From the IMG/VR virus record IMGVR_UViG_3300010885_030941, positions 1 through 32,660 of that record: a DNA stretch of 32,660 nucleotides; one strand, written 5' to 3'. Positions 6,577 to 24,063 of the stretch are shown piece after piece. The DNA is from a virus. Position 1 is the first letter of the stretch. Every line of letters starts with the position of its first letter. Both the position numbers and the translations under genes were made by a program. The notes beneath the pieces are model-generated. The model was not told where the DNA came from and did no database searches. It saw only the letters and a program-made list of their open reading frames with translations.

Positions 6577-7254
6577 ATGAACAAAAGAAAAATTAATCAA
6601 AACCAAAGAAATGAAGAAGGTAACACTCGTGAACAATTAGAGAAGTTACTTACTCAGGACAGTCGTGAGTTAACAATACTAACTCAGGAAGTACAAAATT
6701 TACTTCCAGCTCGAACTGGTCTTTTCATGGACTATAATGTCGTAAAGGCATCAACAGACATAAGTGCACGAGATATCGTAGACGCAATCACGGAGTTTTA
6801 TCTTGACAGCGAAACTGTATCAAAAATTAGTTATGTCAAACAAAAAACAAATGTTGACAAGATAACCGTTTCCAATTTGTTATTCCAGATGAAAACAGCA
6901 GAGCATGCAATTATCAAATTGCTTGAAGAGATTGATGGCGGAAATTTACACGCAAGATCATTCGAAGTTTTAGCATCACTGCAAAAATCAAAAATGGAAA
7001 TCGTAAAACATCTTGCACAATTTATGGTAATCATGGAAACTAATTACAAAAATTTACGTGATGATTATCGATTCAAGAAAGCAGAAAGTACTACGACTGT
7101 GGACGGAGAGATTACTATTGAAAGTAATCCTGACCAAAACAAATTCCGTGGTACTCGTAACTTGATAGAACAATTACGTGATGCAATTCCAGAAAGAAAA
7201 ACTAACGATAGAGACTTAAAGAAAGATGGCACAGGGGAAAATATGGACAAGTAA
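6577..7254 (+). CDS. 16: Terminase small subunit (T4 gp16-like)
   Basis: This 225-residue, largely helical and charged protein starts five bases after the neck gene. The central part (about residues 45-165) is predicted to form long helices with a basic-acidic pattern, as expected of the coiled-coil core of the small terminase that forms rings and recognises concatemeric DNA. The LFMDYNVVKASTDISARDIVD stretch resembles the N-terminal region of the gp16 family. Its end overlaps the large terminase gene by 29 bases, the normal arrangement for the pair. The call relies mostly on position directly upstream of gp17. Confidence 0.7.
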   Translation: MNKRKINQNQRNEEGNTREQLEKLLTQDSRELTILTQEVQNLLPARTGLFMDYNVVKASTDISARDIVDAITEFYLDSETVSKISYVKQKTNVDKITVSNLLFQMKTAEHAIIKLLEEIDGGNLHARSFEVLASLQKSKMEIVKHLAQFMVIMETNYKNLRDDYRFKKAESTTTVDGEITIESNPDQNKFRGTRNLIEQLRDAIPERKTNDRDLKKDGTGENMDK

Positions 7255-9119: not shown

Positions 9120-12100
9120 ATGGCAAAAATTACATTGGATCTAAACCAATTCAAAGCATCAGGTGTTTACACCGTAGAATTTGATGCATCTGAAAGGGTT
9201 GTTATATCTACCCAAACAATTCGTCTGGTACCAGGGTTCTCTAGAAAAGGACCTTTCAATGCGCCAGTATTCTTGAGAGACATCAAAAACGCTCGCCGTA
9301 TATTCGGTGAAATTGATAAATTTCTTGAATCTCGTGGATCATTCTTCCACCGTGCACTTGAAATCTGTTTATCAACAGGTCCTGTATTTGCACTGAACCT
9401 TTTACCGTTGAATAACGTACCAGTAAATGAAGGTGGAGATGCAACTACATACCGTTCATTCGCATTATCTGCAGATGATCAAAACGGAAATCTTACAAAG
9501 GCATTACTTGCTTCTTTCTTTAATCAGGAAAGATTCTGGTTCCCTGACACAACGTATTTACAAGCAACTGTTAATAGCAATTTTGCTAATAACGAAAGAC
9601 TGTTTAACGTTGTAAATCTTGGACAAAAACCTTCTTCGGTTATCGTTCGTAAATCTGTTAATGCAAAACAATACAATGTTACTGCTGAAGATTATTACGG
9701 GCCAGGAAATATTCCTGATTATGTTCGTGCTAAAGATTACTTATCTGATTACTTTATTGATGTGATCGTTGTAGAAGGAGATTGGACTAACTTGTCTGCT
9801 TTATCTATCGATCCACTATACAGTACTTATTTCGACCAACGCGGTATTAAACTTGACCAACTAAATCAATTTCTTGGCGCAGACTTTATTACTTTAATTG
9901 GATCTTTCTCTGGATGTATCATTCCTGATTTTCTTGATAACAATGGTTCAAACCAAAGTATCGAGCCAATCGTTAATAATGCATTCGGTTTAACGGGAAT
10001 ATTCCTAAACGTTAATCGCGATGCTTTATCTGATTATGCTAACAGTGTTTATAAAATTGATCTTGTTGGTCACTCATTAATAAACACAACTGATGATACT
10101 ATCGATTTCTTATCGTATAACACTTCTATCAGTTCTGAATTATTGTATAATGACGCATTGTACAATCCAGGAACTCCGTTCTCAAACAGTGCTTCTTACT
10201 TGCAATACGCAATAGGTTCAACTAATCCTTATGTGAAATCTGTTGCTTACGGAAATAATAATCGTACAGGAAACTGGTTAAACACATTAGTGATTGAAAA
10301 ACCAACACCATCTGACATTGTATTTACACAATCGATGTATGAATACATTAAACGATCGTTAACTAATATATCATTAGTAAAAACTTTTGGTACTGACGAA
10401 GCATTCGTTGTAGGTCAAGATGCCAATGATTATGTTAAAGTAGAAAATGTAATTGACACAGGAACAGCTCTTGAGGTTCAATTAAGTTCTCCACTTTGGT
10501 ATCCTGCTAATGCTTTACCAACTTCTGTTGAGGAAACATTTGCAAGTGCTATACCTACTACTACAAATACTATTGACATCACTGCGTTCCCAACCGTTAC
10601 ACCAGCTGTAGGGGATTACATTCTTGTTGAAGCGCCGGGTATTAAAAAATACTATAAAGTATTATCTTATGCAGGTAATACAATTACCGTTGCCTCTCCA
10701 ACCGTGTCAGTTTCGCCATACTATGATTTAAACTGGTGTTCATTAATCGTGTCTGATGGACTTGCGCTTAACTTTGGTTCGTTTATACAACCAACTGATA
10801 TTAAAGTAAGTATCTACGATGTATCTACAGCTGTAGGTACAACTAATGATCTTATCCCTGATTTAACTTCTGTTGGATTTGATTTTGTCTTCGCTCCTGA
10901 TGTTGTGTATTCACGTCCTAATGCAGGATTCTCTATAGATACATTAACAACTGTGGGTACAACAACTCTTGAAATTACAACAGGTTCATATACAACTGCT
11001 GCAGAATTATTAGGTACAGTTGTTTATTCACCAACAAATACTGCTGGTATTACTGCTGGTACTCGTGTAATTGCTGTAACTATTAACGTACCTGTTGGTT
11101 TTGATACAATTACTTTAAGCAAACCACTTCCAACAACTGGAGCTGTAACTGCTGGTGATACTATCACGTTCCGTGAATATCAAATTGAAGCATACCCCGC
11201 AGCTAAACTTGCATCTAAAATCAAAAGTGCTATTATCATTAATGGTGATAAAGTTAATTACTTAGGTGGATCATCTACATTTAATTATCTTGGTGTAACT
11301 AAGAATTATGGTAAAGACGGTCTATCAGGTACAAATGATTTATTCTCAGTAATTGGTTACGGTCTTGTTGGTTCTGCAGTTCAAGAATACGGAGATACTA
11401 CATTGTCTGAATTAACAACAACTAATTGGGTTGGTGTTGATGAAACATTTGAAACTGGTGGTATTACTCCATATGATCCAGGTGCAACAACTGCTGACAT
11501 TGCAATTTACTCACACGTTGCTGGTAATCTTTCTGAAAACGTAACTATCATGGGATCACTATTCGGTGGTGGTAAAAAATTCAAAACCAATGCTGCTAAC
11601 GGTGCTAAAATTGAAATTGGTCAATTCCTTGTGAATAATGATATTAACAATCCACTTTTAACTCGTGTAATTGCAAAAGTGAAAAAAATCAATCCATCAA
11701 CTGGAGCTGTTGAATATGAATTTGAGGTACTTGAAACTCCTGCTGTAAATGCATTAAACCAAGTTACTCGTTTCCAATCAATTCAAAACTTCTGTGATCG
11801 TTTACAGTTTACTTACTTAAGTGGTTTTACTTTAACAAGTTATCATTTACCAAACAAAACTGAAGCGCAAGTAGAAAAAATCTATGGTGTACTTGAAAGA
11901 ACTAATCTTGCATCTGTTTTAAAATCACGTGATGTAATCTCTTTTAGATATATCGTTGATACATTTAATAACGGTCTTGCACCAATGATGGGTTCTAAAC
12001 AATATCTTTCGAGATTAGCTAAGAATCGTCAAAAGTGTTTAGCAATCCTTAACGCTCCTTCAATCGCTGAGTTTCAGTCAAGTACTGACCCAAGATTTAC

Positions 12101-12872
12101 AGAGTTACCGGATCCGCAAACTGGAAACCCAAAACCGGTGTTGAATACTGAATACATTTCAACAGGTGGTAATTTAACACTTGGACCATCATTTAGATTT
12201 ACTCTACCTGATGAAGACCAAGGTGCTAAATTCATTGGGGTATTTACACCAAACATTATCATTCGTGAGAACGGTAAGAATATGTCTATACCTCCTGCAG
12301 CTGATGTGTCAAACAACTTTATCCGTAAGTTCATTAATGGAACACCATACGGTATCGTTGCTGGTCCAAGACGTGGTATTATTTCAAATCCAAAATTCGT
12401 TGGTCTTGAATATGATTTCTTGTTAAAGGATCGTGAATTCATCGAACCAATGGGAATGAATCCTATCGTAATCGTTAGAAATATCGGACCGATGATTTAC
12501 GCAAACCAAACTGCATACCAAAGAACACTATCTGCATTCAACAACTTACATGTTAGAGATCTTCTTATTACAATAGAGGAAGCTATCGAAGATGTACTTG
12601 CACAGTACTTGTTTGAATTTAATGATGCTGCAACTCGTCTAGAGATTCGTACTATCATTGAAAACTATCTTGACACTGTTAGAAATGCTGGCGGTATTTA
12701 TGACTTCGCAGTAATCATGGATGACAGTAACAATACACCTGAAATTATCGACCAAAACTTCGGTATTCTTGACGTTGGTATTGAGCCTGCTCGTGGATTA
12801 CAAAAATTCATTAATAGAGTTACAATCCTTAAAACTGGTGCAATTGCTTCAGGAGGATTCAGTGTATCTTAA
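9120..12872 (+). CDS. 18: Tail sheath protein (T4 gp18-like), unusually long
   Basis: This 1250-residue protein is the contractile sheath subunit. The N-terminal part (VPGFSRKGPFNAPVFL, then the IFGEIDKF and GPVFALNLLPL segments) follows the start of T4-like sheath proteins, and the C-terminal part (about 1000-1250) carries the conserved core: GIVAGPRRGII, the DFLLKDREFIEPMGMNPI segment, and the ADVLAQYL-type helix region before the final beta strands. T4 gp18 has 659 residues, so nearly 600 residues are extra. Much of this is a Thr/Val/Ser-rich beta region at about 470-700, including at 607-685 a module like one in the neck protein. The tube gene follows 33 bases later. Confidence 0.85.
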   Translation: MAKITLDLNQFKASGVYTVEFDASERVVISTQTIRLVPGFSRKGPFNAPVFLRDIKNARRIFGEIDKFLESRGSFFHRALEICLSTGPVFALNLLPLNNVPVNEGGDATTYRSFALSADDQNGNLTKALLASFFNQERFWFPDTTYLQATVNSNFANNERLFNVVNLGQKPSSVIVRKSVNAKQYNVTAEDYYGPGNIPDYVRAKDYLSDYFIDVIVVEGDWTNLSALSIDPLYSTYFDQRGIKLDQLNQFLGADFITLIGSFSGCIIPDFLDNNGSNQSIEPIVNNAFGLTGIFLNVNRDALSDYANSVYKIDLVGHSLINTTDDTIDFLSYNTSISSELLYNDALYNPGTPFSNSASYLQYAIGSTNPYVKSVAYGNNNRTGNWLNTLVIEKPTPSDIVFTQSMYEYIKRSLTNISLVKTFGTDEAFVVGQDANDYVKVENVIDTGTALEVQLSSPLWYPANALPTSVEETFASAIPTTTNTIDITAFPTVTPAVGDYILVEAPGIKKYYKVLSYAGNTITVASPTVSVSPYYDLNWCSLIVSDGLALNFGSFIQPTDIKVSIYDVSTAVGTTNDLIPDLTSVGFDFVFAPDVVYSRPNAGFSIDTLTTVGTTTLEITTGSYTTAAELLGTVVYSPTNTAGITAGTRVIAVTINVPVGFDTITLSKPLPTTGAVTAGDTITFREYQIEAYPAAKLASKIKSAIIINGDKVNYLGGSSTFNYLGVTKNYGKDGLSGTNDLFSVIGYGLVGSAVQEYGDTTLSELTTTNWVGVDETFETGGITPYDPGATTADIAIYSHVAGNLSENVTIMGSLFGGGKKFKTNAANGAKIEIGQFLVNNDINNPLLTRVIAKVKKINPSTGAVEYEFEVLETPAVNALNQVTRFQSIQNFCDRLQFTYLSGFTLTSYHLPNKTEAQVEKIYGVLERTNLASVLKSRDVISFRYIVDTFNNGLAPMMGSKQYLSRLAKNRQKCLAILNAPSIAEFQSSTDPRFTELPDPQTGNPKPVLNTEYISTGGNLTLGPSFRFTLPDEDQGAKFIGVFTPNIIIRENGKNMSIPPAADVSNNFIRKFINGTPYGIVAGPRRGIISNPKFVGLEYDFLLKDREFIEPMGMNPIVIVRNIGPMIYANQTAYQRTLSAFNNLHVRDLLITIEEAIEDVLAQYLFEFNDAATRLEIRTIIENYLDTVRNAGGIYDFAVIMDDSNNTPEIIDQNFGILDVGIEPARGLQKFINRVTILKTGAIASGGFSVS

Positions 12873-12905: not shown

Positions 12906-13463
12906 ATGGCTGGATTACCGCATTTTAGAAATTCCCAAGCATCGATGAATAAATTCGAACCTGTGTACTTATCACAGTTCGAAATTTTATTGACGCCACC
13001 ACCTGCTGTTGGTGGATGGGACTTAGTAATGGAACAAGTACTAAATGTTAAAGGACTTGATATCAACAAACAACCTGGACAAGTAGTACAAAAATACAAA
13101 AGTGCTTCACGTACTTTCGCTGGTGGTGTCGTTGATGATACTACAATTACTATTACACTTGACTTTGAAGTCAATCTTGATGATAGTAATTCGATGTATG
13201 TATATAAAGCATTGCGTAAATGGACAGATATCATATATGATCCATTAACAGGTCGTATGGGATTAAAGAAAGATTATATTGGTGGACCGATGATTATCAA
13301 TCAGTTTAACAAAAATGGTGATATCTTCAGACAAATTAAAATGGCAATGGTTATGCCTACAACACCATTACCAGCAATGGATCTTGCATTTTCTGAAAAC
13401 GATGTTTACAGATTAACAGGATTTGGTTTTAAGGCAGATTATTGGGAAGAAACTATTCTGTAA
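12906..13463 (+). CDS. 19: Tail tube protein (T4 gp19-like)
   Basis: This 185-residue protein follows the sheath gene, as gp19 follows gp18 in T4, and is similar in size to T4 gp19 (163 residues). It begins MAGLPHFRNSQASMNKFEPVYLSQFEI, a pattern common to T4-like tube proteins (start followed by a short FEPVYLxxFEV strand). The rest is alternating beta strands, with RTFAGGVVDDTTITITLDFEV in the middle. Tube subunits form the rigid hollow cylinder inside the sheath. Its stop overlaps the next ATG by one base (TAATG). Confidence 0.85.
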   Translation: MAGLPHFRNSQASMNKFEPVYLSQFEILLTPPPAVGGWDLVMEQVLNVKGLDINKQPGQVVQKYKSASRTFAGGVVDDTTITITLDFEVNLDDSNSMYVYKALRKWTDIIYDPLTGRMGLKKDYIGGPMIINQFNKNGDIFRQIKMAMVMPTTPLPAMDLAFSENDVYRLTGFGFKADYWEETIL

Positions 13464-13831
13464 TGAATTACTTACAAACATTCGAAAGCTATATCGTCGG
13501 AATTCTTAATGAAGCTTCCGGCGATAGCTTACAGAATCTCCAAGCTCGTATAAAGAATCTAACAGCCACGGCTCAAAAACTTAAAGCTAAAGATTTTAAT
13601 GAACTAATGGATAAAAAGAAGTCTGCATTGGATTCCGCTAAAGAATCCAAAGATAATCTCAGAACACAAGTAGCTCAACGTAATTTAAACATAGTAAAAT
13701 TGAGAATGCAAAAACATCAACTCAGAACAGATATGGTATCAAAAGAAATCGACTTTCTAAATCAAAAACTAACTTACCAACAAGAATCACTTAAGATTAA
13801 AGATGCAATAAACAATCTTCGAGAAACTTAG
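13463..13831 (+). CDS. Coiled-coil protein with capsid-targeting-like N-terminus
   Basis: This 122-residue protein starts at the ATG that overlaps the tube stop codon. An ATG 21 bases earlier, inside the tube gene, would add MGRNYSV but has no support. It begins MNYLQTFESYIVGILNEAS, which resembles the TFExFLNE peptide of the 18994-20932 cluster, with a short insertion before LNE. The remainder is almost wholly charged helix with heptad-like leucines, typical of a scaffold/core or chaperone protein. A terminator follows at 13850. In T4 the portal (gp20) comes after gp19. This is not a portal. It may be a prohead core protein, or a tail assembly factor. Confidence 0.7.
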   Translation: MNYLQTFESYIVGILNEASGDSLQNLQARIKNLTATAQKLKAKDFNELMDKKKSALDSAKESKDNLRTQVAQRNLNIVKLRMQKHQLRTDMVSKEIDFLNQKLTYQQESLKIKDAINNLRET

Positions 13832-15256: not shown

Positions 15257-18200
15257 ATGGCAAGTCCAGCAGACGGATATAAAACATTAGCAGGTATTCT
15301 TTCCGTAAACGCGGTGATGGAGAAACGTCTTGCGGCAATTGAGAAAGCACTAACAGGTGGTGACAAAAAAGACAAAGGTCTTGATGTTAAAGCTGCACTG
15401 GGTGGTGGCGGTGCGGATAAGTATGGAAAAGAAATGCTCAAAAATTCTAATGAGCAAACAAAATCACTCAAGAATATTGAAAAGCTTTTAGGCGGTGGTT
15501 CTGGTATGGATAAACTCGGTGGGTTTTTCGGAAAGAAAGAATCAAAAGAAGTAACAGCCATTGATGCTGTCGGTTTAATGAAAGCCGTTCGTATGTATTC
15601 ATATGTAGGTAAAGAAACGTCAGACGAGTTCATAACCTTTATTCAAGATTTTTTCAAAATATTTAATAATGTTGATACTGATAAAGTAGCCGCTGGTTCT
15701 TTAGCTCTTGAAAAGGTTTCGCATAGTGTAGGTAAATTAATCAAATCACTCTTCTTTTTAACACCATTAATGAAAGTTGCAGAGAGCTCAACTGTTCTAC
15801 TTATTTCCATCGCAACAAAAATTAATGAAGCATTAGCAAAATTTGATAAGGAAACTGTAGAGAACGCAAGTAACGCAGCAAAAACATTAGGTATATTAGC
15901 ACTCTCTATGTTGGCTATTACTGGGACTTTAGTACTTGTCGGAATGGCCGTAATGTCTTTCGGAGCTGAGATGGCATTAGGTGTTTTGGCAATCGCTGGG
16001 GTGGCTGCAGTATTTTATTTAATAGGTCAAGGTGCCGAAAAAATTGATCAAGGCGCTAAAGCAATGAGTTGGGTAGGTTTATCTATGATTGCTGTTGCTG
16101 CTGGCTTTTACATATTTGCATTAGGTATATCTGAAGCAGGGAAAATAATAAGTGGTGGAGCGGGTAATTTTTTAGTTGGTCTTATCGCAGGTATTGGAAC
16201 CATTGCATTATTAGCATTTATATACGGCGTTGCTGGAGAGTTTTATAAAGAGATATCATTAGGAGCTCTTGCTTTTGCCGCGGTTGGTGTATCATTAATC
16301 GTTTTAAGTTATGGATTAGAAAAATACTTTGGTACAGTTGCCAAAATCTTTGGTATGGATCAAGGAGATGGTGGAGGTTCAATTGGTGGAGCATTAGGCG
16401 GAGTCTTTGGTGGTATTGTAACATCACTTGGCGGTATAGCACTTCTTTTAGGAGTAGGTGTTGTATTTGCACTAGCTGGTTTATATGAATTGGGTATTCC
16501 TTTTATGATATTGGCAGGTGCTGCGGCATTTGCGTTTATAGGTCTTTCTTTAATGGTTTTATCACCGGCGTTAGAACAATACTTCAATACAGCAGGTAGA
16601 ATACTAGGTACTAAATCTGAAAAACCTGATATTGGTGGAAAGGTGGGAGACCTGTTTAGTGGCATCGGAACAACCATCGGTGGTTTATCCTTATTGTTAT
16701 TTACTGGTGCTGTATTTGCAATTGCTGGTTTAGCGTCACCTTTAATTTTAGCAGGTGCTGCTGCATTTGCACTTGCAGGCGTTGCATTAAAATCGATAGC
16801 AGATGGCTTGGTTTATTTTGATGAAGTTGCTGGTGATACAACGATTAGCGATAATTTAAAGAATTCGTTAATTACTGTTAAAGATGCTATACTAACTTTT
16901 GTTACTGATGATCCGCAAGGAGGTGTTCTTGGTGTACTCGATTCTGTAGTTGGCGGTGGAGTCATTGGTGCTGTAACTGGGGCTAGTAAAATGGCTCTGG
17001 GACTTGCAACAGCTGTTATGATAGGTCCTGCACTATCAAGTATTGCACAAGGAATTGGAGCATGGGCCAATTTACAAAATATGGCTGCTATCAGCGGATA
17101 TGATAAAATGGGACAACCTATTTTTGATAAGTCTCGTACTGTTAATGTAGAACAAGCATTAGATAACATCACAAATTATTTACCTTCTATAATCACACCA
17201 TTTGTTAATTTATCAACAGATGCAGCGCTGGGTCAACAAGCAAGCGTGTTAAGTGTACTTACAGGTATTCAATTATCAAGTAGTCCGTTCGCTCGTGGTG
17301 TTAGTGTAGCCGGTGATATTGGATTAGCTTTGTCGGGTATTGCCGGTGGAATTTCCGCATGGGCAAATTTATCAAACATACCATCTATCATAGGCTATAA
17401 TACAAAAGGACAACCTATTTATGATAGTAAGAAAACTGCTGATGTTAGAGGTGCATTACAAAACATAACAGATTTTTTACCACAGATATTAACACCATTC
17501 ATAGATTTATCGACTTCTGCGGCATTGGGCCAAGAACCAAGTTTATTAAGTGTTCTTACAGGTATTCAGTTATCTGATAGTCCTTTTGCTCGTGGTGTAA
17601 GTACTGCTTTAGAAATGGGTCGTGTATTAACAGAGATTGGTAATGGCTTAGGCGTATTTGTAAATATTAATCAAATACCTGAAATCACCGGATATGATGA
17701 AAAGGGAAAACCTATTTATAGTGGTAAGACTGTTGACTCAACGCAAGCAATTGCAAATGTTAGTCAAGTTCTAAAAGATATCGTAAAAGTATTTTCTGAT
17801 AATGCAAGTTCACTCGAAGATCTTGAGGATGTAGAAGGAAGTTCTATCGGCCAAATGATTGGCGGTATTTTAACAGCAATATCATCATCAATAGAAACAT
17901 TTGCAAACCCTGACAAAATTAAGTTAATTGAAAGTTATGATGATAAAGGTAAAGCTATCTATAGCAAAACAGTATTTGTCAATCTTGATTCTGTTATTAC
18001 CAACATGTCATCAGCTATTACACGAATCGTTGATATTTTTGCTGATGATAAATTAACTGATACTTTAGAAGATTTAGACGATGCTTTAAGTGGTGGTGAT
18101 ACGATAGGAAAATTTATAACAAGCTTAGTCAAACCGTTGGAAACATTTGCCAAAGCTGATACAGCCAATAAGGACAAAAAGGGATTAGCTGGTATAGCTA

Positions 18201-18943
18201 AATTATTATCGGAAGTTTTCACTTCTATATTGACTTTAGCTACTGATGGAAAGGATAGGTTTGTAACTGCTCGAAGTTCAGCAGAGAGTCTTTCCGCTAT
18301 AAGTAAAATACTAAGTGGTAATTTTATCAATTTTGTAGAAGATTATGCAAAAATTAACAGTGAAAAATTCAAAACCAATGCTATTAATGTAAATATGGGT
18401 ATGAAGGTGTTATCTGCTCTTAATGCAACTGATGCAAAGAAACGTCCATTCTTAGCACAATTCGGTGATGAAATGCAAAGGCTATCAGCAATATCAAGTC
18501 CATTCTCGAAATTCGTAGATACATTTGGTAAATTTGCTGAGCATATGGGAACATTCAAGGAAAACTTCAGTTTCATGAATCCCGATGGTATTATGGCGTT
18601 CGAGAAATGGACGGCTGCAGTTGAGCATCTTGTGTTATCTGCAGAAAAATCAGGTGTCTCCGGCGGCGGTTTACTTAACACTATTGTTGAAAAAGCAAAT
18701 GGTTTAATATCATCTGCCTTTGGTTCAGAAGGTGGCGGAAAAGGAACTGACATGAAAGCCGCGGATAAACAAGCCGCTGTTAATAAAGCAAACAAACCCG
18801 CTGAAGATAAAACAAAGGATAAAGATAAAACTGATATGAAAGAAGTCGTAGCAGCAATTAAAAATCTTGAGAAAGCAATTCAAGGTATGGCCTTTCCTAA
18901 AAATGTTATTGACGGAAATACTATCCGAATAGTTGAAGGATAG
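15257..18943 (+). CDS. Tail tape measure protein
   Basis: This 1228-residue protein is the largest single product after the sheath. The N-terminal 130 residues are helical and charged with glycine-rich breaks. Residues about 165-510 contain a series of strongly hydrophobic Ala/Gly/Leu/Ile helices, as in tape measure proteins that insert in the host membrane. Residues about 608-910 hold a repeated unit of about 100 residues, marked by the signatures GYDKMGQPIFD, GYNTKGQPIYD, GYDEKGKPIYS and SYDDKGKAIYS. The C-terminus is a Lys/Asp/Ala-rich linker and a final helix. The length, the hydrophobic core, and the position after the tube and the gp26/gp51-like pair fit a tape measure that sets tail length. 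T4 gp29 has 590 residues, so a longer tail would be expected. Confidence 0.75.
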   Translation: MASPADGYKTLAGILSVNAVMEKRLAAIEKALTGGDKKDKGLDVKAALGGGGADKYGKEMLKNSNEQTKSLKNIEKLLGGGSGMDKLGGFFGKKESKEVTAIDAVGLMKAVRMYSYVGKETSDEFITFIQDFFKIFNNVDTDKVAAGSLALEKVSHSVGKLIKSLFFLTPLMKVAESSTVLLISIATKINEALAKFDKETVENASNAAKTLGILALSMLAITGTLVLVGMAVMSFGAEMALGVLAIAGVAAVFYLIGQGAEKIDQGAKAMSWVGLSMIAVAAGFYIFALGISEAGKIISGGAGNFLVGLIAGIGTIALLAFIYGVAGEFYKEISLGALAFAAVGVSLIVLSYGLEKYFGTVAKIFGMDQGDGGGSIGGALGGVFGGIVTSLGGIALLLGVGVVFALAGLYELGIPFMILAGAAAFAFIGLSLMVLSPALEQYFNTAGRILGTKSEKPDIGGKVGDLFSGIGTTIGGLSLLLFTGAVFAIAGLASPLILAGAAAFALAGVALKSIADGLVYFDEVAGDTTISDNLKNSLITVKDAILTFVTDDPQGGVLGVLDSVVGGGVIGAVTGASKMALGLATAVMIGPALSSIAQGIGAWANLQNMAAISGYDKMGQPIFDKSRTVNVEQALDNITNYLPSIITPFVNLSTDAALGQQASVLSVLTGIQLSSSPFARGVSVAGDIGLALSGIAGGISAWANLSNIPSIIGYNTKGQPIYDSKKTADVRGALQNITDFLPQILTPFIDLSTSAALGQEPSLLSVLTGIQLSDSPFARGVSTALEMGRVLTEIGNGLGVFVNINQIPEITGYDEKGKPIYSGKTVDSTQAIANVSQVLKDIVKVFSDNASSLEDLEDVEGSSIGQMIGGILTAISSSIETFANPDKIKLIESYDDKGKAIYSKTVFVNLDSVITNMSSAITRIVDIFADDKLTDTLEDLDDALSGGDTIGKFITSLVKPLETFAKADTANKDKKGLAGIAKLLSEVFTSILTLATDGKDRFVTARSSAESLSAISKILSGNFINFVEDYAKINSEKFKTNAINVNMGMKVLSALNATDAKKRPFLAQFGDEMQRLSAISSPFSKFVDTFGKFAEHMGTFKENFSFMNPDGIMAFEKWTAAVEHLVLSAEKSGVSGGGLLNTIVEKANGLISSAFGSEGGGKGTDMKAADKQAAVNKANKPAEDKTKDKDKTDMKEVVAAIKNLEKAIQGMAFPKNVIDGNTIRIVEG
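17080..17990 (+). repeat. Internal ~300-bp repeats in the tape measure gene
   Basis: Two well-conserved units (about 17080-17380 and 17380-17680) are followed by two more diverged ones. Each begins with a Gly/Ser-Tyr-Asp-x-x-Gly-x-x-Ile-(Phe/Tyr) signature and, in the first two, ends with an LSVLTGIQLS...SPFARGVS segment. Conservation is at the protein level and the DNA has diverged. Confidence 0.8.
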
Positions 18944-18964: not shown

Positions 18965-18972
18965 TATATACT
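18965..18972 (+). promoter_or_regulatory. Variant late-type promoter TATATACT
   Basis: TATATACT lies 21 bases before the ATG at 18994. It differs from the octamer at the last two positions, but the same variant also precedes the mini-gene at 21737. Confidence 0.45.
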
Positions 18973-18993
18973 ACACAAATAAAAATTACATGA

Positions 18994-19320
18994 ATGAAAC
19001 ATATATCATTTAAAGAGTTTGAATCTCAAAAACAATCACAGGTAAGTAAAGCTGTTGATGAAGACACTCTTGTTTCTGCCAAAGGAAAATCAAATGCAGA
19101 GATACTTGCGGAAATAACTTCCCTAAAAGAAAAGAAAGGTTTAGCTGCTAAAAACAAAAGTGCGTATGAACATCAAATACATGAGATAGATATTAAGCTT
19201 CTTGAGTTGGATCTTGAAAGAAATAGATTGATTTCTAAAAAACAAGAATTATCTGAAGCATCTGAAATTGCAAAATCAAAACAAGTTAAAGATGGTAGAC
19301 AGCAAGAAGAAGAAAAGTAA
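18994..19320 (+). CDS. Small coiled-coil protein with MKHISFKEFES N-terminus
   Basis: This 108-residue protein begins MKHISFKEFESQ, a form of the MKxxxTFExFLNE peptide shared by the next genes, although it lacks the LNE cleavage-like end. The rest is a long charged helix with heptad spacing (about residues 30-95) and a Gln/Glu/Lys-rich end. First gene of a five-gene set of small proteins that appear to be destined for the head. No known family recognised. The next gene starts inside its last 29 bases. Confidence 0.75.
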   Translation: MKHISFKEFESQKQSQVSKAVDEDTLVSAKGKSNAEILAEITSLKEKKGLAAKNKSAYEHQIHEIDIKLLELDLERNRLISKKQELSEASEIAKSKQVKDGRQQEEEK

Positions 19321-19834
19321 ATACGTAGAATTACAGGATGATCAAAAATCACCTGCTGATACGGATAATTTCCCACCACCGGAATTTTTGGCAAAGCCAG
19401 CAGCCGGTGATACGGGATATGAAATTGTATCTGCAGCATATCATGACCAAACAGAATACTTCCGTCCGGGAATTCGTTCTACCAATCAAGATATTGCAAA
19501 AACTCGTGGTGCTAAGGAAAAGTCACGCAGAGTATATGAACATGTGTTTACATTCGAAGAATTCTTAAATGAATCCGTTGAAAAGATAACTGTTGATAAC
19601 TTACTCGATTGGGCTGCATTAAAAATTGTTGGTAAGACAGTTAATGTAGAAGAAGCTATCGAAGATTATGCAAAAAGCAAATCTATACAGCCTGAAGATA
19701 TTGCTCAAGCAGCTGTTACTTTTTTGAAATCTACCAATTATGATGGAAAAGAACCTCAAGATCTTGACCAAGCAACTCTCATTGAAATAATCGATAAGAT
19801 TGATGAAATTTACGGAACAGAAACAAAACTTTAA
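19292..19834 (+). CDS. Protein with internal TFEEFLNES peptide
   Basis: The start chosen is the ATG at 19292 (MVDSKKKKSKYVELQ), which gives 180 residues. A TTG 24 bases upstream also lies in frame but is weaker. The N-terminal 80 residues are polar and probably disordered. Residues 85-95 read VFTFEEFLNES, the same peptide found at the N-terminus of the next three proteins, here internal. After it comes a compact helical domain of about 85 residues. If the peptide is a processing site, cleavage after LNE would remove the first 94 residues as a propeptide. A GTG at 19544 falls exactly at the start of the peptide and could be an internal start. Function unknown. Confidence 0.7.
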   Translation: MVDSKKKKSKYVELQDDQKSPADTDNFPPPEFLAKPAAGDTGYEIVSAAYHDQTEYFRPGIRSTNQDIAKTRGAKEKSRRVYEHVFTFEEFLNESVEKITVDNLLDWAALKIVGKTVNVEEAIEDYAKSKSIQPEDIAQAAVTFLKSTNYDGKEPQDLDQATLIEIIDKIDEIYGTETKL

Positions 19835-19853
19835 TACTTATAGATTATATGTG

Positions 19854-19861
19854 TATAAATA
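19854..19861 (+). promoter_or_regulatory. TATAAATA, T4-type late promoter
   Basis: TATAAATA, identical to the T4 late consensus, lies 92 bases before the ATG at 19954. The intervening 92 bases are AT-rich and contain no gene that I can support. Confidence 0.4.
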
Positions 19862-19953
19862 GTTTATCTAAGTACATTAGTTAAACTTTATAATACCTTA
19901 TAATAGATACACTAACACAAATTACAAAGATCATTAAAAAGCATTAAAAGATA

Positions 19954-20184
19954 ATGAAAAACCTACACACATTTGAAAAGTTCTTAAATGAATCTTCTAA
20001 ACTAACTCTAAAGACTAGTGTTTCTAATGATGATGAATACACAGCAGTAAGTAAACAACTTAGATCTGCTGGTATAGACTTTAAATGGTCGGCTGAAAGT
20101 GGTTGGCTTATTTTTAATACTGAAGCCGATAAGAAAAAAGCTGAAGAGATTCTAAAAGAAAGTCTGAATACAAATAAACAATAA
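19954..20184 (+). CDS. Small protein with capsid-targeting-like N-terminus MKNLHTFEKFLNES
   Basis: This 76-residue protein begins MKNLHTFEKFLNESS, then a short alpha/beta domain of about 60 residues with a hydrophobic centre (DFKWSAESGWLIFNT) and an amphipathic last helix. The N-terminal peptide parallels the T4 internal proteins IPI-IPIII, which start MKTYQEFIAEA, direct the protein into the prohead and are cut by the gp21 protease after the glutamate. Here the cut would be predicted after LNE, leaving about 62 residues. The homology of the signals is an inference. The next gene starts five bases downstream of the stop. Confidence 0.78.
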   Translation: MKNLHTFEKFLNESSKLTLKTSVSNDDEYTAVSKQLRSAGIDFKWSAESGWLIFNTEADKKKAEEILKESLNTNKQ

Positions 20185-20189
20185 AAGAT

Positions 20190-20561
20190 ATGAAGAACGT
20201 ACATACATTTAAAAGTTTCCTATATGAAACATACTATAACAAGGAATGGAATTTAACAAACATTCAATCTTGGATTACAACATACGCAAATGAAAACAGG
20301 TTAGAATTGAAATTAGTTAATAGGATTGACAAAAAGAGTTCTAATAGCAAGTCAAAAACAACGTTTCATATTTATGACTTGGGTGACAAGTTTGGTATTG
20401 TTATTATAGATGATAAAGTTGAAGGTGCTCCAAGATTATCTGAAATTGAAGTTGCTGTTGGTATTAAAGGATCGGCATTAGGCAGTCTTACCAAATCATT
20501 TAAGATTTCCGATTCGTCGGAAAAAGGTCTTGCTGACATGATGGATAAAGTTACAAAATAA
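20190..20561 (+). CDS. Small protein with capsid-targeting-like N-terminus MKNVHTFKSFLYET
   Basis: This 123-residue protein begins MKNVHTFKSFLYETY, the same pattern as its neighbours with Tyr in place of Asn before the glutamate. The body is a mixed alpha/beta domain: a helix (NIQSWITTYANENR), several strands including FHIYDLGDKFGIVIIDD, and a C-terminal Lys/Asp-rich helix. No catalytic motif or known family is recognised. It belongs to the same run of closely spaced genes, with five bases to the gene before and eight to the gene after. Confidence 0.76.
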   Translation: MKNVHTFKSFLYETYYNKEWNLTNIQSWITTYANENRLELKLVNRIDKKSSNSKSKTTFHIYDLGDKFGIVIIDDKVEGAPRLSEIEVAVGIKGSALGSLTKSFKISDSSEKGLADMMDKVTK

Positions 20562-20569
20562 TTATAATT

Positions 20570-20932
20570 ATGAAACACATTAAAACATTTGAAAGTTTCT
20601 TAAACGAAGGAGTAATCATGAGTTTTTACTACTCAAAGAAATCATCAGAAATTGATGGGGACGTAAAGGAATTACAGAGCAAAGCTCAAGAATTTATTAA
20701 AATGGCTCGTGATAAAGATTATAACATATCTTCTAATGATTCTGTACTCTATTTTCCAAATTTTACATGGGCTGGCGGCAAACAAATCTTAGGACCGTCA
20801 TTCGGTATTTTAGCAGGATCTGATACTATGTTGGTTAGCCCAATAGGCTCTGATAAGATAATGAAAATTGGAGAAAGCCTACTTGTTCGTTTTATTAAGG
20901 ACGGTAGAATAGAATCATACAACTTATACTAG
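20570..20932 (+). CDS. Small protein with capsid-targeting-like N-terminus MKHIKTFESFLNEG
   Basis: This 120-residue protein begins MKHIKTFESFLNEG, the clearest form of the shared peptide, followed at once by VIMSFYYS. The body carries a long helix (about 25-50), then beta-rich segments with YFPNFTWAGGKQILGPSFGIL and a hydrophobic end. An internal ATG (residue 18, MSFYYS) lies directly after the peptide, so a form without the peptide could in principle be made. No known family. Last gene of the cluster, followed by a structured terminator region. Confidence 0.76.
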   Translation: MKHIKTFESFLNEGVIMSFYYSKKSSEIDGDVKELQSKAQEFIKMARDKDYNISSNDSVLYFPNFTWAGGKQILGPSFGILAGSDTMLVSPIGSDKIMKIGESLLVRFIKDGRIESYNLY

Positions 20933-20943
20933 CAATGAAACAT

Positions 20944-21016
20944 ACGGCTTAGGACCGTTGTCTGTTACGCAGACGAAAACCCGGAGGAGTCGCTACCTAC
21001 CGGGTTTTCCTTTTTT
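20944..21016 (+). terminator. Three-hairpin region ending in a rho-independent terminator
   Basis: Three consecutive hairpins can be drawn: CGG...CCG (20945-20957), GTCTG-TTACG-CAGAC (20960-20974), and AAAACCCGG (20976-20984) paired with CCGGGTTTT (21000-21008), the last followed by CCTTTTTT. The last is a clear terminator for the preceding cluster. The stacked array could also be a small RNA released from the 3' end. A five-codon frame, MKHTA-stop, begins at 20936 with the same ATGAAACATA as neighbouring genes. Confidence 0.8.
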
Positions 21017-21033
21017 AATATGACCGTTTTAGA

Positions 21034-21041
21034 TATATAAA
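21034..21041 (+). promoter_or_regulatory. TATATAAA late-type promoter, secreted protein gene
   Basis: The octamer in agaTATATAAAtt follows a terminator and lies 77 bases before the ATG at 21119. The leader is long for this window. Confidence 0.6.
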
Positions 21042-21118
21042 TTAGGGAAAAGGTATTGTAAGTTCTAAGAGTATCATATAGAAAAATATAGATACCATAC
21101 AAAAAACAATATACTAAA

Positions 21119-21640
21119 ATGAAAAAAATCTACTCGCTAATCTTATTAATCTTATTGTCGAGCATCGGATATTCACAATGCGATAGCTTAGACGCTACCA
21201 TCGTTGTAAAATTATACAATTCAAATCTTGAAGCGGTTAACTTTCAGTTATGTTATATGGACACTGCAGATTATCTTATAGTAAGTCAAGCTTATGCAAA
21301 ATCTGAATTATCACACCCAAAAAATGCACCCAGCAAGTATATAGGAAATTATTTATTGACAGCTGAACGTGTAGTTGTATTCGTTACAGACAATAGTAAA
21401 TTCCGAATAAAATTAGATAACGAACAGCTTACAGGAAATTTTCCTAATGATTGGATTACGGTAAAATGCTATTATAAAATAACTCAAAACAAAATTAGAT
21501 ATTTACTACTCGGTAGTGTAGAAACTATTCTAATTGTGAAAAGTGATGAGATACAAGAATTTCGATTAACCAAGTCTGAAGCTTCAGAAATATACCAAAT
21601 GTGTTATAAGTATTCCAAATGGAAAGGTTGGAAGCTTTAG
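21119..21640 (+). CDS. Secreted protein with signal peptide
   Basis: This 173-residue protein starts MKKIYSLILLILLSSIGYSQC, a standard signal peptide with a basic start, a hydrophobic core of about 13 residues and a predicted cut after GYSQ or just before it, a form typical of Bacteroidota. The mature part (about 150 residues) has three cysteines and mixed strands and helices with many Tyr residues. It is flanked by its own promoter and does not belong to the neighbouring operons. A role at the host envelope such as superinfection exclusion or envelope modification would fit, but no family is recognised. Confidence 0.75.
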   Translation: MKKIYSLILLILLSSIGYSQCDSLDATIVVKLYNSNLEAVNFQLCYMDTADYLIVSQAYAKSELSHPKNAPSKYIGNYLLTAERVVVFVTDNSKFRIKLDNEQLTGNFPNDWITVKCYYKITQNKIRYLLLGSVETILIVKSDEIQEFRLTKSEASEIYQMCYKYSKWKGWKL

Positions 21641-21706
21641 AAAAACAAATAATCTTTAAGGCAATGGATATTATCGTATGTCCGAAAACTAATTAATCTT
21701 GATGTA

Positions 21707-21714
21707 TATATACT
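21707..21714 (+). promoter_or_regulatory. Variant late-type promoter TATATACT, mini-gene
   Basis: TATATACT, inside TATATATACTATAC, lies 22 bases before the ATG at 21737, the same spacing as the variant upstream of 18994. Confidence 0.5.
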
Positions 21715-21736
21715 ATACAATTTTTAATACTAAATT

Positions 21737-21832
21737 ATGAAAACTTTAACAACCACATCGTTATCCTTATGGCATTCACTCTCTCCGAGTAGATGTTCCG
21801 TATTGGTCCGTGATGGTAAATTCTTTGAGTAA
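21737..21832 (+). CDS. 31-residue mini-protein or leader RNA with own promoter and terminator
   Basis: The frame encodes 31 residues beginning MKTLTTTSLSLWHSLSPSR and ending VRDGKFFE. It has an A-rich upstream region as do other genes here, a late-type promoter 22 bases before it and a strong terminator 28 bases after it. The transcript would be about 170 bases. The peptide is rich in Ser/Thr/Leu with one Trp and one Cys and has no recognised family. It could instead be a non-coding RNA in which the frame is incidental. Confidence 0.45.
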   Translation: MKTLTTTSLSLWHSLSPSRCSVLVRDGKFFE

Positions 21833-21859
21833 ATAAATTAAGCATAAAGATATATCGTA

Positions 21860-21889
21860 CCGGATCTCAAAAGGATCCGGTTTTTTTTG
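21860..21889 (+). terminator. Rho-independent terminator
   Basis: A 7-bp GC-rich stem (CCGGATC / GATCCGG) is followed by eight T residues. It separates the mini-gene from the tRNA array. Confidence 0.93.
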
Positions 21890-21913
21890 TCATTAATATT
21901 GTGATTATAAATT

Positions 21914-21997
21914 GGAAGAGTAATCAAGCTGGCGCTTGACCTAGTCTTGAAAACTAGCGGTACCTTCGGGTATGGAGATCGATACTTCACTCTTCCG
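21914..21997 (+). tRNA. tRNA-Ser (UGA)
   Basis: Acceptor GGAAGAG/CTCTTCC, anticodon loop CTTGAAA with anticodon TGA, a class II long variable arm (TACC-TTCG-GGTA), and discriminator G as usual for serine. The T-loop reads ATCGATA with A in place of the standard T54. CCA is not fully encoded. Confidence 0.9.
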
Positions 21998-22002
21998 CAT
22001 AA

Positions 22003-22072
22003 GCCCAAGTTGATCGTGGTGGTCGGTAAGTCTGCAAAACTTATGGTGTTGGTTCGATTCCAACCTTTGGCT
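22003..22072 (+). tRNA. tRNA-Cys (GCA)
   Basis: Anticodon arm TAAGT-CTGCAAA-ACTTA gives anticodon GCA. D stem GATC/GGTC and T arm GTTGG-TTCGATT-CCAAC are complete. The acceptor GCCCAAG/CTTTGGC has one C-T mismatch at the fourth pair. The discriminator is T. The gene begins five bases after the serine tRNA. Confidence 0.88.
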
Positions 22073-22080
22073 CTAATATG

Positions 22081-22153
22081 TTGACCGTAGCTCAGTTGGT
22101 TAGAGCGCTTGATTGTGGTTCAAGAGGTCATGGGTTCGATTCCCATCGGTCAC
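22081..22153 (+). tRNA. tRNA-His (GUG)
   Basis: Anticodon arm CTTGA-TTGTGGT-TCAAG gives anticodon GTG. T arm ATGGG-TTCGATT-CCCAT is perfect. The acceptor stem pairs TGACCG/CGGTCA. The terminal pair is not Watson-Crick, and a G one base upstream could serve as the G-1 typical of histidine tRNA. Confidence 0.88.
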
Positions 22154-22161
22154 CCTCATAT

Positions 22162-22232
22162 ACGTGTATGGTGCAATGGTAGCATACGGGTCTCCAAAAC
22201 CTTTGATGGGAGTTCGAATCTCTCTATACGTG
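22162..22232 (+). tRNA. tRNA-Trp (CCA)
   Basis: Acceptor ACGTGTA/TATACGT with discriminator G. The anticodon loop CTCCAAA gives anticodon CCA, and the T-loop TTCGAAT is standard. Confidence 0.88.
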
Positions 22233-22238
22233 CAAAAT

Positions 22239-22312
22239 GATTCTATAGCTCAATTGGATAGAGCACAAGTTTTCTAAACTTGCGGTTACAAGTTCGATTC
22301 TTGTTAGGATCA
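22239..22312 (+). tRNA. tRNA-Arg (UCU)
   Basis: Acceptor GATTCTA/TAGGATC, anticodon arm CAAGT-TTTCTAA-ACTTG with anticodon TCT, T arm ACAAG-TTCGATT-CTTGT. It reads AGA/AGG, the arginine codons most used by the AT-rich genes here together with CGT. Confidence 0.9.
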
Positions 22313-22322
22313 CTATTAAAAA

Positions 22323-22395
22323 CGGGATGTAGTACAGTTGGTAGTACGCCGCATTTGGGATGCGGAGGTCGTCAGTTCGAGTCTGGCCATCCCGA
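22323..22395 (+). tRNA. tRNA-Pro (UGG)
   Basis: Acceptor CGGGATG/CATCCCG, anticodon arm CCGCA-TTTGGGA-TGCGG with anticodon TGG, discriminator A. The T-loop TTCGAGT is standard. Confidence 0.92.
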
Positions 22396-22400
22396 CTTCA

Positions 22401-22487
22401 GGAAAGTAATCCGTTGCAGGCGCACGGTCATGTTTGCTAAACATTGAGAGCCCGGAAGGGCTTGGAGATCGTTACTTCTGCTTTCCG
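22401..22487 (+). tRNA. tRNA-Ser (GCU)
   Basis: Acceptor GGAAAGT/GCTTTCC, anticodon loop TTGCTAA with anticodon GCT, class II variable arm (AGCCC-GGAA-GGGCT), discriminator G. The T-loop ATCGTTA has A54 and T58, the reverse of the normal T54-A58 pair, and shares the unusual A54 with the other serine tRNA. Confidence 0.88.
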
Positions 22488-22490
22488 CAT

Positions 22491-22600
22491 TCAAGAGGTG
22501 GTGTTACACGGTCCATAGACGTATGGATTGATCTCGTATAATAAGTGATGATCAGATCGTCAACGAAAAGAGGTAGCGTAGGTATAGAATCCTACCTTGA
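22491..22600 (+). ncRNA. Unassigned cloverleaf-like RNA between tRNA-Ser and tRNA-Thr
   Basis: This 119-base gap in the tRNA array folds by eye into a closed multi-branch structure: TCAAG (22491-22495) with CTTGA (22596-22600), a 7-bp hairpin GTCCATA-GACG-TATGGAT (22511-22528), GATCT (22530-22534) with AGATC (22554-22558), and GTAGG-loop-CCTAC (22578-22595) stacked directly on the closing stem like a T arm. No tRNA identity can be assigned. T4 also has small stable RNAs of unknown function (species 1 and 2) in its tRNA cluster. It might instead be a decayed tRNA. Confidence 0.45.
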
Positions 22601-22606
22601 TAATTT

Positions 22607-22679
22607 GCCTTCGTAGCTCAACTGGTAGAGCACTTCACTTGTAATGAAGGGGTTGTAGGTTCGATTCCTATCGAAGGCT
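22607..22679 (+). tRNA. tRNA-Thr (UGU)
   Basis: Acceptor GCCTTCG/CGAAGGC, anticodon arm CTTCA-CTTGTAA-TGAAG with anticodon TGT, T arm GTAGG-TTCGATT-CCTAT, discriminator T. Confidence 0.92.
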
Positions 22680-22690
22680 CAAAATTTATT

Positions 22691-22770
22691 GGCCCATTGG
22701 TGAAATTGGCAAACACGTTCGGCTTAAGATCGAATGCTTCGGCTTAAAGGTTCGAGTCCTTTATGGGTCA
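22691..22770 (+). tRNA. tRNA-Leu (UAA)
   Basis: Acceptor GGCCCAT/ATGGGTC, anticodon loop CTTAAGA with anticodon TAA, short class II variable arm (TGCTTCGGCT), T arm AAAGG-TTCGAGT-CCTTT, discriminator A as usual for leucine. Confidence 0.88.
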
Positions 22771-22799
22771 CTTATAGTAAAACTATTTATACTGTTATG

Positions 22800-22807
22800 T
22801 ATATAAA
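22800..22807 (+). promoter_or_regulatory. TATATAAA late-type promoter inside the tRNA array
   Basis: The octamer in tatgTATATAAAct lies 19 bases before the tRNA-Leu (UAG) gene, so the last tRNA can be transcribed separately from the others. Confidence 0.65.
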
Positions 22808-22826
22808 CTGTATAAATTTTAATCAT

Positions 22827-22906
22827 GCCCAGGTGGTGGAATTGGTAGACACGCAGGTCTTAGGAACCTGTGCTTCGGTGTAAGGGTTCGAGTCCCTTCT
22901 TGGGTA
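22827..22906 (+). tRNA. tRNA-Leu (UAG)
   Basis: Acceptor GCCCAGG/CTTGGGT (with G-T pairs), anticodon arm CAGGT-CTTAGGA-ACCTG with anticodon TAG, class II variable arm, T arm AAGGG-TTCGAGT-CCCTT, discriminator A. Confidence 0.9.
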
Positions 22907-22945
22907 CTTAAAGTTTATTATTATGAAAACAATTTTCATATTCTG

Positions 22946-22953
22946 TATATAAA
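22946..22953 (+). promoter_or_regulatory. TATATAAA late-type promoter, accessory operon
   Basis: The octamer in ttctgTATATAAAct lies 14 bases before the ATG at 22968. Confidence 0.7.
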
Positions 22954-22967
22954 CTATAAATTAAACT

Positions 22968-23207
22968 ATGAAGATAGAACTTATCAGAGGATCAAAAGTT
23001 GTAACACTTTCATATGCGGATATAACCGCGGAAGGGCAACAATCAGTTAACGAAGGATATGCACCGGCACTTGCTCAGGTGGATTTAAAAAATCCTGAAC
23101 TTGTTAATGAAGCAGACATTGTAGTCTTTCATAATCAAGGTTTATCGACAATTATTAAAAGTTCATTTAGTGAACAAGAAACGGATCAAATTTTAGGTAT
23201 ATGTTAG
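22968..23207 (+). CDS. Small soluble protein of unknown function
   Basis: This 79-residue protein begins MKIELIRGSKVVTLSYADI and has an N-terminal beta hairpin followed by helices. It has no signal, membrane segment or recognised motif. It is the first gene of a three-gene run and overlaps the next gene by seven bases, which suggests coupled translation. Confidence 0.65.
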   Translation: MKIELIRGSKVVTLSYADITAEGQQSVNEGYAPALAQVDLKNPELVNEADIVVFHNQGLSTIIKSSFSEQETDQILGIC

Positions 23208-23512
23208 ATCATGAGAAAAGTGATCTATTAAAAGCTAAGTTGTTAGCTGATAGGTCTAAAGATGGAAAACCATCCGAACCAAAGAATCCTACCGATATTG
23301 CAAAAGCATTAGACTCGTCAGTATCATTACTGACGTTTGCATTAGGTTTTGCGTCTACATTTTTTACACAGAAAATTTTACTAACTAAATTCACAACGGT
23401 AGTCCCGTTTACTTTTTGGGAATCAGTAGCAATTTACTTTTGCTTTACGTCTACTCTAAAGCTGTTTACCAAAGCATTACATTTAATCCTTAGTTCACTT
23501 AGAAAAGCATGA
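23201..23512 (+). CDS. Small membrane protein, two transmembrane segments
   Basis: This 103-residue protein has a charged N-terminal third (MLDHEKSDLLKAKLLADRS) followed by two hydrophobic segments, about residues 41-58 and 72-92, and a short basic end (LRKA). The size and topology are compatible with a holin-like protein, but also with many small phage membrane proteins, and no lysis gene is adjacent. It overlaps the genes on both sides by a few bases. Confidence 0.68.
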   Translation: MLDHEKSDLLKAKLLADRSKDGKPSEPKNPTDIAKALDSSVSLLTFALGFASTFFTQKILLTKFTTVVPFTFWESVAIYFCFTSTLKLFTKALHLILSSLRKA

Positions 23513-24063
23513 TGAAACGAGTTATACTTGTCGGTAAAAGTGGCGCGGGTAAAGATCACGCTCGCAAGATTTTTGAAAATGTTATAGGTGGTAAATACGC
23601 AGTGTCTTATACTACAAGACCTGCTCGTGAAAATGAAGAAGACGGCAAAGATTATATCTTTCTAACTCCAGAACAAGCCGTCTTGATGATTGAGAGTGAT
23701 CAATTTTATGAGTGGGTAGAATTTAACGGTTGGGTATATGGAACAACCAAAGATCAATTCTACGGTGATTGCTTTACATTCATAATGACTCCTAAAGGCC
23801 TATCACATCTATCAGAACAAGATCGTAATGAATCGTGTGTTATCTATTTTGATATAGATGAATCCGTTCGTAAAGTTCGTATGATGGAGAGACAGGGAAA
23901 TGCTGACACTGTAGATAGAAGAATCGAAGCCGACCGTATAGATTTTGAGTTTTATAATGACTACGATTATATAATTACCAATCCCAACTATAGAGTTGAT
24001 GATATGATTGAAATCGCGCGTCAAATTTCTCAAAAGACAATCTCATTAGTGGATAAAAACTAA
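23509..24063 (+). CDS. Guanylate kinase-like nucleotide kinase
   Basis: This 184-residue protein has the P-loop GKSGAGKD at residues 9-16, the GMP-binding pattern SYTTRPARENEEDGKDY at about 33-49, and the VEFNGWVYGTT segment where guanylate kinases bind the base. Guanylate kinases make GDP from GMP with ATP. The final P-loop residue is Asp instead of Ser/Thr, which is unusual and could change metal/phosphate contacts. The middle TPKGLSHL is also atypical. It may act on another (deoxy)nucleoside monophosphate, as T4 gp1 does. The start at 23509 overlaps the upstream stop. A second ATG follows directly. Confidence 0.78.
   Translation: MMKRVILVGKSGAGKDHARKIFENVIGGKYAVSYTTRPARENEEDGKDYIFLTPEQAVLMIESDQFYEWVEFNGWVYGTTKDQFYGDCFTFIMTPKGLSHLSEQDRNESCVIYFDIDESVRKVRMMERQGNADTVDRRIEADRIDFEFYNDYDYIITNPNYRVDDMIEIARQISQKTISLVDKN

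Follow-up and report, generated by a model that had tools for sequence, protein, structure and literature searches.

A capsid-targeting-like N-terminal tag on unrelated small proteins of a large T4-like phage and its relatives

The stretch of viral DNA analysed here (the window) is a 32.7-kb IMG/VR fragment of a T4-like myovirus. Its plus strand encodes a T4-type terminase large subunit (7226-9043; PF03237, E 3.5e-18), the tail sheath (9120-12872; in T4-like order), the tail tube (12906-13463; phrog_3629, E 9.4e-5, and phrog_45, E 1.5e-4), and a probable tape measure (15257-18943) recognised by the length, composition and gene order that it has in common with relatives. No annotated close relative of the window was found by DNA similarity; by identity of the terminase (61%), the sheath (56%, full length) and the tube (67%), its closest relative is G018, a record of 238 kb. 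Relatives infect Bacteroidota, and the group to which the window phage belongs probably consists of large phages of Bacteroidota. The left end of the window truncates a plus-strand gene, leaving its C-terminal end (178-432), and a tandem repeat encoding KPEGEDK at 1-180 continues past that end. As judged by position and character only, this gene is probably the counterpart of the gene that follows the capsid gene in relatives; no firm sequence match to the latter was found. The gene order of G026, another relative bearing the tag described below, would put the portal, protease and capsid genes immediately beyond the window's left end.

Downstream of the tape measure, three consecutive plus-strand genes share an N-terminal tag of the form MKxxxTFExFLNE, as a sequence-only reading of this DNA had claimed. 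ORF 19954-20184 (76 aa) begins MKNLHTFEKFLNES, ORF 20190-20561 (123 aa) begins MKNVHTFKSFLYET, and ORF 20570-20932 (120 aa) begins MKHIKTFESFLNEG. With an arrow marking the predicted cut after the Glu that ends each tag, the tags themselves are MKNLHTFEKFLNE↓S (19954-19992), MKNVHTFKSFLYE↓T (20190-20228) and MKHIKTFESFLNE↓G (20570-20608), giving the sites LNE↓S, LYE↓T and LNE↓G, respectively. When a tag profile trained without the window was applied to 83 window ORFs at a threshold of 9, these three genes scored 25.7, 18.7 and 31.4, and the best ORF below them, 13463, scored 7.4. No match was found in codon-shuffled versions of the window, and a DNA pattern for TFExFLxE has three matches in the window versus none in a reversed control.

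Searches of Pfam, PHROGs, PADLOC and PDB sequences returned nothing firm for the bodies of these three candidate cargo proteins, including no firm match to a known inhibitor, defence or effector family. The 19954 protein weakly resembles phrog_2667, “internal head protein” (E 0.022), and this is also the only likeness of the three bodies to those of the T4 internal proteins IPI, IPII and IPIII, and its alignment with other small tagged proteins shows reliable conservation in the tag only. Internal-protein bodies are highly variable, too much so for the lack of a match to carry any weight against an anti-restriction role. For 20190, no homologue was found in IMG/VR or among the relatives, and its structure model is poor (pLDDT 54.6). 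Finally, two other large phages encode tagged homologues of 20570 (46-52% identity); fold searches with the 20570 model (76.6; one of five models good) gave no match at E <0.001.

Three further instances named in the sequence-only reading fared less well. The 122-aa coiled-coil-like protein at 13463-13831 (plus strand) does begin with MNYLQTFESYIVGILNEAS, from an ATG at 13463 right behind the tube gene, but it scores below the threshold, and its start is probably a weaker variant of the tag, MNYLQTFESYIVGILNE↓AS. Tagged genes also adjoin the tube gene in L012, L034, L044 and L056. The plus-strand ORF at 19292-19834 carries the reported VFTFEEFLNES at about residues 85-95 (TFEEFLNE at 19550-19573; internal profile score 29.6), although this tag is internal, not N-terminal, and the instance is doubtful. 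In G018, a stand-alone gene of 64 aa corresponds to the first ~68 residues of this ORF and stops at that point; the window ORF thus resembles a conserved gene fused to a tagged domain. There is no ATG just upstream of the internal tag, only a GTG at 19544, and the joining may reflect a real fusion, an alternative start or an assembly error. The last of the three, the plus-strand gene at 18994-19320 with its MKHISFKEFES start, was rejected as a tagged gene, since its profile score is -3.8 and its G018 homologue, which starts MSNFVKFTDWEKTK, is tagless; no (L/I)xE follows its aromatic residues, and it is a conserved, untagged small gene following the tape measure.

In G018, a homologue of 24091 comes immediately after the 64-aa gene, and a plus-strand block of approximately 19530-24063 is missing between them. 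In the window, this block holds the fused tagged domain, the three tagged genes, ORF 21119, eight tRNAs (22003-22907), and the ORFs at 22968-24063. Together, the window's tagged genes resemble an island acquired by insertion, and one tagged domain in it seems to have been joined to the neighbouring gene.

The consensus of the 13-residue tag is MKHIxTFESFLNE, with the highest information content at the two F and the E (F7, 3.5 bits; F10, 3.7 bits; E13, 3.2 bits), and conservation ends directly after the Glu. A degenerate DNA pattern for the tag has 80 sites in 52 viral stretches of IMG/VR, where a scrambled pattern (same codons, other order) has none, and the tag pattern has no matches in 84,980 cellular (bacterial and archaeal) genomes; the tag is phage-only. 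A loose pattern, which admits a few chance members, applied to the IMG/VR tag regions, seven relatives and phage PAU, gave 245 distinct tagged ORFs. Their bodies fall into 164 BLAST groups, 129 of which are singletons, bearing out the earlier claim that the bodies are unrelated to each other. By profile, G018 and G038 (~240 kb) have 24 tagged ORFs each, with 0-0.2 in codon-shuffled controls, and internal matches are rare in G018 (8 of 63,707 internal 10-mers). Further matches occur in the huge phages LR756500 (462 kb; 22 versus 1 in the control) and LR756502 (10 versus 2), and essentially no tag of the MKxxxTFExFLNE form was found by profile versus control in Lak-A2, PTm1, pT24, MA9V-2 and MaF61. 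Many of the LR756500 tags end in FVYE, FLLE or FINE, not FLNE, and the capsid protein of this phage has LYE↓N at the matching site; the tag and the capsid site may co-vary between phages.

Most tagged bodies belong to no recognised family. Among the most widespread is a cytidylyltransferase-like enzyme (FPGRFQPFHxGH) with seven members (G018, G019, G038, L011, L018, L032 and L047). Ferritin/Dps-like tagged proteins (DUF5856; phrog_858 for L084) are found at L084:1-414, G020 80522-80938 and G038 153000, and a head-loaded Dps-like protein could shield incoming DNA. Other tagged bodies include a cyclic-phosphate-processing receiver domain, a weak ATP-grasp match, a paralogous group of DUF285-repeat proteins in G018, and a 579-aa ORF of G018 with an intein-like/Hint domain (L070:15252-16988; PF14890, E 1e-12). 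An ADP-ribosyltransferase reading of L053:3298-3747, L032:5258-5785 and PAU gp144, which have YHGT, YHYT or YHVT stretches, was rejected as lacking Pfam support, and a PDB sequence search gave no support for it in the case of L053.

The proposed likeness to the T4 internal-protein signal was recovered blind. A profile of 10 positions, built from 97 tags of phages other than T4, PAU and the window phage, ranked IPIII first and IPII second among the 470 ORFs of complete T4 (hypergeometric p about 2.7e-5); IPI, whose leader departs from the tag spacing, was not recovered. Residues 4 and 7 of IPIII are required for targeting, and residues 8 and 10 for processing (PMC9026906). These critical positions (Y, F, I and E) align with F7, F10, L11 and E13 of the tag at the same spacing. 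Propeptides of this kind comprise about 10-19 residues on unrelated proteins, and the tag is a 13-residue start found on 164 body groups. In the same T4 ranking (AF158101), gp61.1 (complement 18966-19130; MKTFKEFIKEDMV...) scored 12.3 and a 76-aa ORF at 114210 (plus strand; start MLLEFKQFLYEAS) scored 9.3, placing third and fourth of 470; both are possible candidates for unrecognised head-targeted proteins.

In PAU, the blind profile placed gp142, gp270 and gp154, all annotated as “internal capsid proteins,” at ranks 3, 4 and 5 of 441 (hypergeometric 1.4e-5). Four of the five PAU proteins so labelled (gp142, gp154, gp199 and gp270), from separate places in the genome, have the PAU form of the tag, MKTLTxLYEaKLNEA, with gp199 near background by the blind profile; no tag was found on the fifth, gp70. 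In all, PAU, which grows on a Sphingobacterium host, has 17 ORFs bearing its own type of tag. These labels are record annotation and constitute support, not proof. The nicknames that the PAU record also gives to structural parts (“mango” and “banana”) make it probable that its notes derive from analysis of virions, although the record gives no source.

Several features of the tag and of the head genes are consistent with proteolysis. When ORFs were selected by the aromatic pair alone, Glu stood at the expected place in 72% of them, versus 8% in the background. Among 118 cluster representatives, 80 have S, A or G directly behind this Glu (p 9e-30; 67% of ORFs), in keeping with the earlier claim that LNE plus a small residue fits the gp21 rule, and a second (L/I/V)NE lies within 14 aa in 22 of the 118, versus 17 of 968 body windows (p 1e-12). 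The gp21-type protease expected on that claim was found in relatives, including G018, but not in the 32.7-kb window, where no protease, capsid or scaffold gene was found; matching specificity is therefore read from relatives, among which G018, being the closest, offers the best proxy in its protease and capsid site. Of 39 records that bear the tag or are closely related, 11 encode a Peptidase_S77 (gp21-type) protease, the two largest among them; the 11 comprise G018, G038 and nine others, some of them near-duplicates of each other. Eight records lie above the curated cut-off of PF03420 (E to 1.8e-16), phrog_207 matches at E 7.7e-38, and the G038 protease was detected by an alignment profile (E 3e-74). 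No protease was detected in most tag-bearing records, the majority of which are fragments, nor in one record of 202 kb.

In most protease-bearing records, including G018, the protease is fused to the scaffold in a protein of 576-791 aa, the scaffold repeats of which include YSEYIAENLDKSI and YSEYLAENLDKSI. The repeat is similar to YQEFIAEA of the T4 signal, the G018 scaffold has 26 (L/I/V)xE sites versus 10.6 expected, and we infer that the tag mimics the scaffold repeat. Capsid proteins of relatives have LNE↓S, LNE↓G, LNE↓N or LYE↓N/D at matching positions near residue 45 (the T4 capsid N-terminus used for comparison was taken from its GenBank record), and that of G018 has an LNE↓G site matching the tag. 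The PAU capsid protein has been shown by N-terminal sequencing to be shortened from 585 to 520 residues (PMC5646251); its LME↓N site lies behind residue 64, and a cut after the Glu would leave 521. Tag-like C-termini are seen on two proteins whose genes lie at or close to the capsid gene, TLSFEDFIKIKSK in the truncated window gene at 178-432 and RFMKFEEYMAFKK in L076 5313-7145 (G018 185313-187145). Because T4 Alt and gp21 undergo C-terminal processing, the signal may also exist in a C-terminal form.

The common N-terminus very probably serves as a capsid targeting sequence like that of the T4 internal proteins, and its cargo would be packaged, trimmed and injected. Sequence comparison directly shows the tag and its residue pattern, which is T4-like, as well as the presence in relatives of the protease and of sites that match. 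Packaging of tagged proteins is a well-supported prediction, and would be expected in the window phage itself; cleavage probably takes place at LNE or LYE; and injection into the host is suggested by analogy with T4. Each of the three T4 internal proteins (Ip1-3) enters the host by injection and inhibits type IV restriction enzymes (PMC12373910), and the T4 signal has been proposed as a general loading route for proteins of T4-like phages (PMC9026906). By analogy with IPI-IPIII and Alt, it is tempting to speculate that some cargo proteins may counter restriction or remodel host enzymes. Late in infection, the tag would bind cargo to the prohead scaffold core, mainly through the aromatic residues three apart, and the shell would form around the scaffold-bound, tagged cargo. 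The prohead protease would then cut after (L/I/V)xE, removing the tag, the N-terminal piece of the capsid protein and the scaffold, and the freed cargo would be kept in the head beside the DNA, with which it would enter the next host.

A less likely explanation, to which we would give perhaps one chance in a handful, is that the tag recruits only assembly helpers, namely scaffold or core parts that undergo processing, remain in the head and do nothing in the next host. T4 gp67 and gp68, and partly IPIII, are scaffold or core parts of this sort. This would suit the acidic or coiled-coil-like character of several tagged bodies (13463 and L024:2912), the tag-like repeats in the scaffold itself, and the influence of T4 IPIII on head assembly (PMC9026906). 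Essential parts should be conserved, however, whereas the tagged bodies vary enormously, with 245 ORFs split into 164 groups; several of them resemble enzymes (cytidylyltransferase, cyclic-phosphate receiver, ferritin/Dps-like, and weakly ATP-grasp), and the window's tagged block is missing from G018 at the matching site. Considerably more improbable is that the tag directs proteins to a different phage structure (the tail, for instance, or a replication compartment or membrane) and that its likeness to T4 is convergent. The blind match to T4 IPIII/IPII and the PAU internal capsid proteins argues against it, as do the LNE sites common to the capsid protein and the scaffold, and the small residue after Glu and repeated LNE sites, which fit proteolysis; on its side are the position of the window cluster next to tail genes and the recurrence of tagged genes beside the tube gene. 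Finally, that the common start is a relic of diverged copies of one gene and not a signal can hardly be right, for although some bodies form paralogous groups, such as the DUF285 proteins of G018, a sharply conserved 13-aa start precedes 164 body groups with 129 singletons, its conservation is concentrated at functional positions and ends with the Glu, and internal matches are as rare as 8 in 63,707 10-mers in G018.

Capsid targeting of T4 internal-protein type, the preferred reading, may be extended to a broader one, to which we give slightly less than an even chance. The head would then be a multi-effector delivery device, in which an exchangeable label mimicking the scaffold repeat (YSEYIAE-like) is borne by well over 100 unrelated families, including enzymes; about two dozen proteins per genome would enter the head, lose their tags to the protease-scaffold fusion and be injected as soon as infection begins, and islands encoding them would be exchanged among phages.

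It is established that a short leader directs unrelated small proteins into the heads of T-even phages, and the T4 signal has so far been catalogued mainly in these phages. What is new here is how extensively the tag is used and in which lineage, its longer consensus and the many more cargo types, together with the association with a protease-scaffold fusion bearing tag-like repeats. In the open-access literature, no paper with the peptide TFESFLNE was found, nor any on such tags in Bacteroidota jumbo phages, nor any report of the signal beyond T-even-like phages at such scale. With a readable tag on ~160 groups of mostly unknown proteins, the phage proteins of unknown role that are earliest to act in the host could be found by sequence search, and the tagged proteins are concrete anti-defence candidates for a group in which defence has received little study. 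The tag may also serve for loading proteins into very large phage heads.

Several known systems invite comparison. PAU, like the window group, is a large T4-like phage of a Bacteroidota host, and its internal capsid proteins likewise have tagged genes that are both clustered and scattered, often with LNE↓A (MKTLTxLYEAKLNEA). Unlike the window group, its consensus has LYE and then LNE, with no common bodies established, and its protease and scaffold are separate genes (gp151 and gp152), not a G018-type fusion. Similarly, T4 gp21 and gp22 have their likeness in the Peptidase_S77 homologues of tag-bearing phages and in a scaffold full of (L/I/V)xE, but protease and scaffold form one protein here; such a fusion is annotated in Tenacibaculum phage PTm1. 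T4 Alt, a head-carried enzyme delivered to the host (T4 annotation; PMC9026906), provides an analogy for the tagged enzymes, although no tagged ORF is established as an ADP-ribosyltransferase, the YHGT/YHYT stretches being suggestive at most. Finally, the tag has in common with the T4 internal proteins (MKTYQEFIAE↓A) the MK start, aromatic residues three apart, an (I/L)xE with a small residue after it, small bodies unrelated to each other, and a gp21-type protease, found here in relatives. It differs from the T4 signal in having 13 residues versus 10, many of its bodies are larger or enzyme-like, and there are about 24 tagged ORFs per genome in two phages of ~240 kb, versus three internal proteins in T4.
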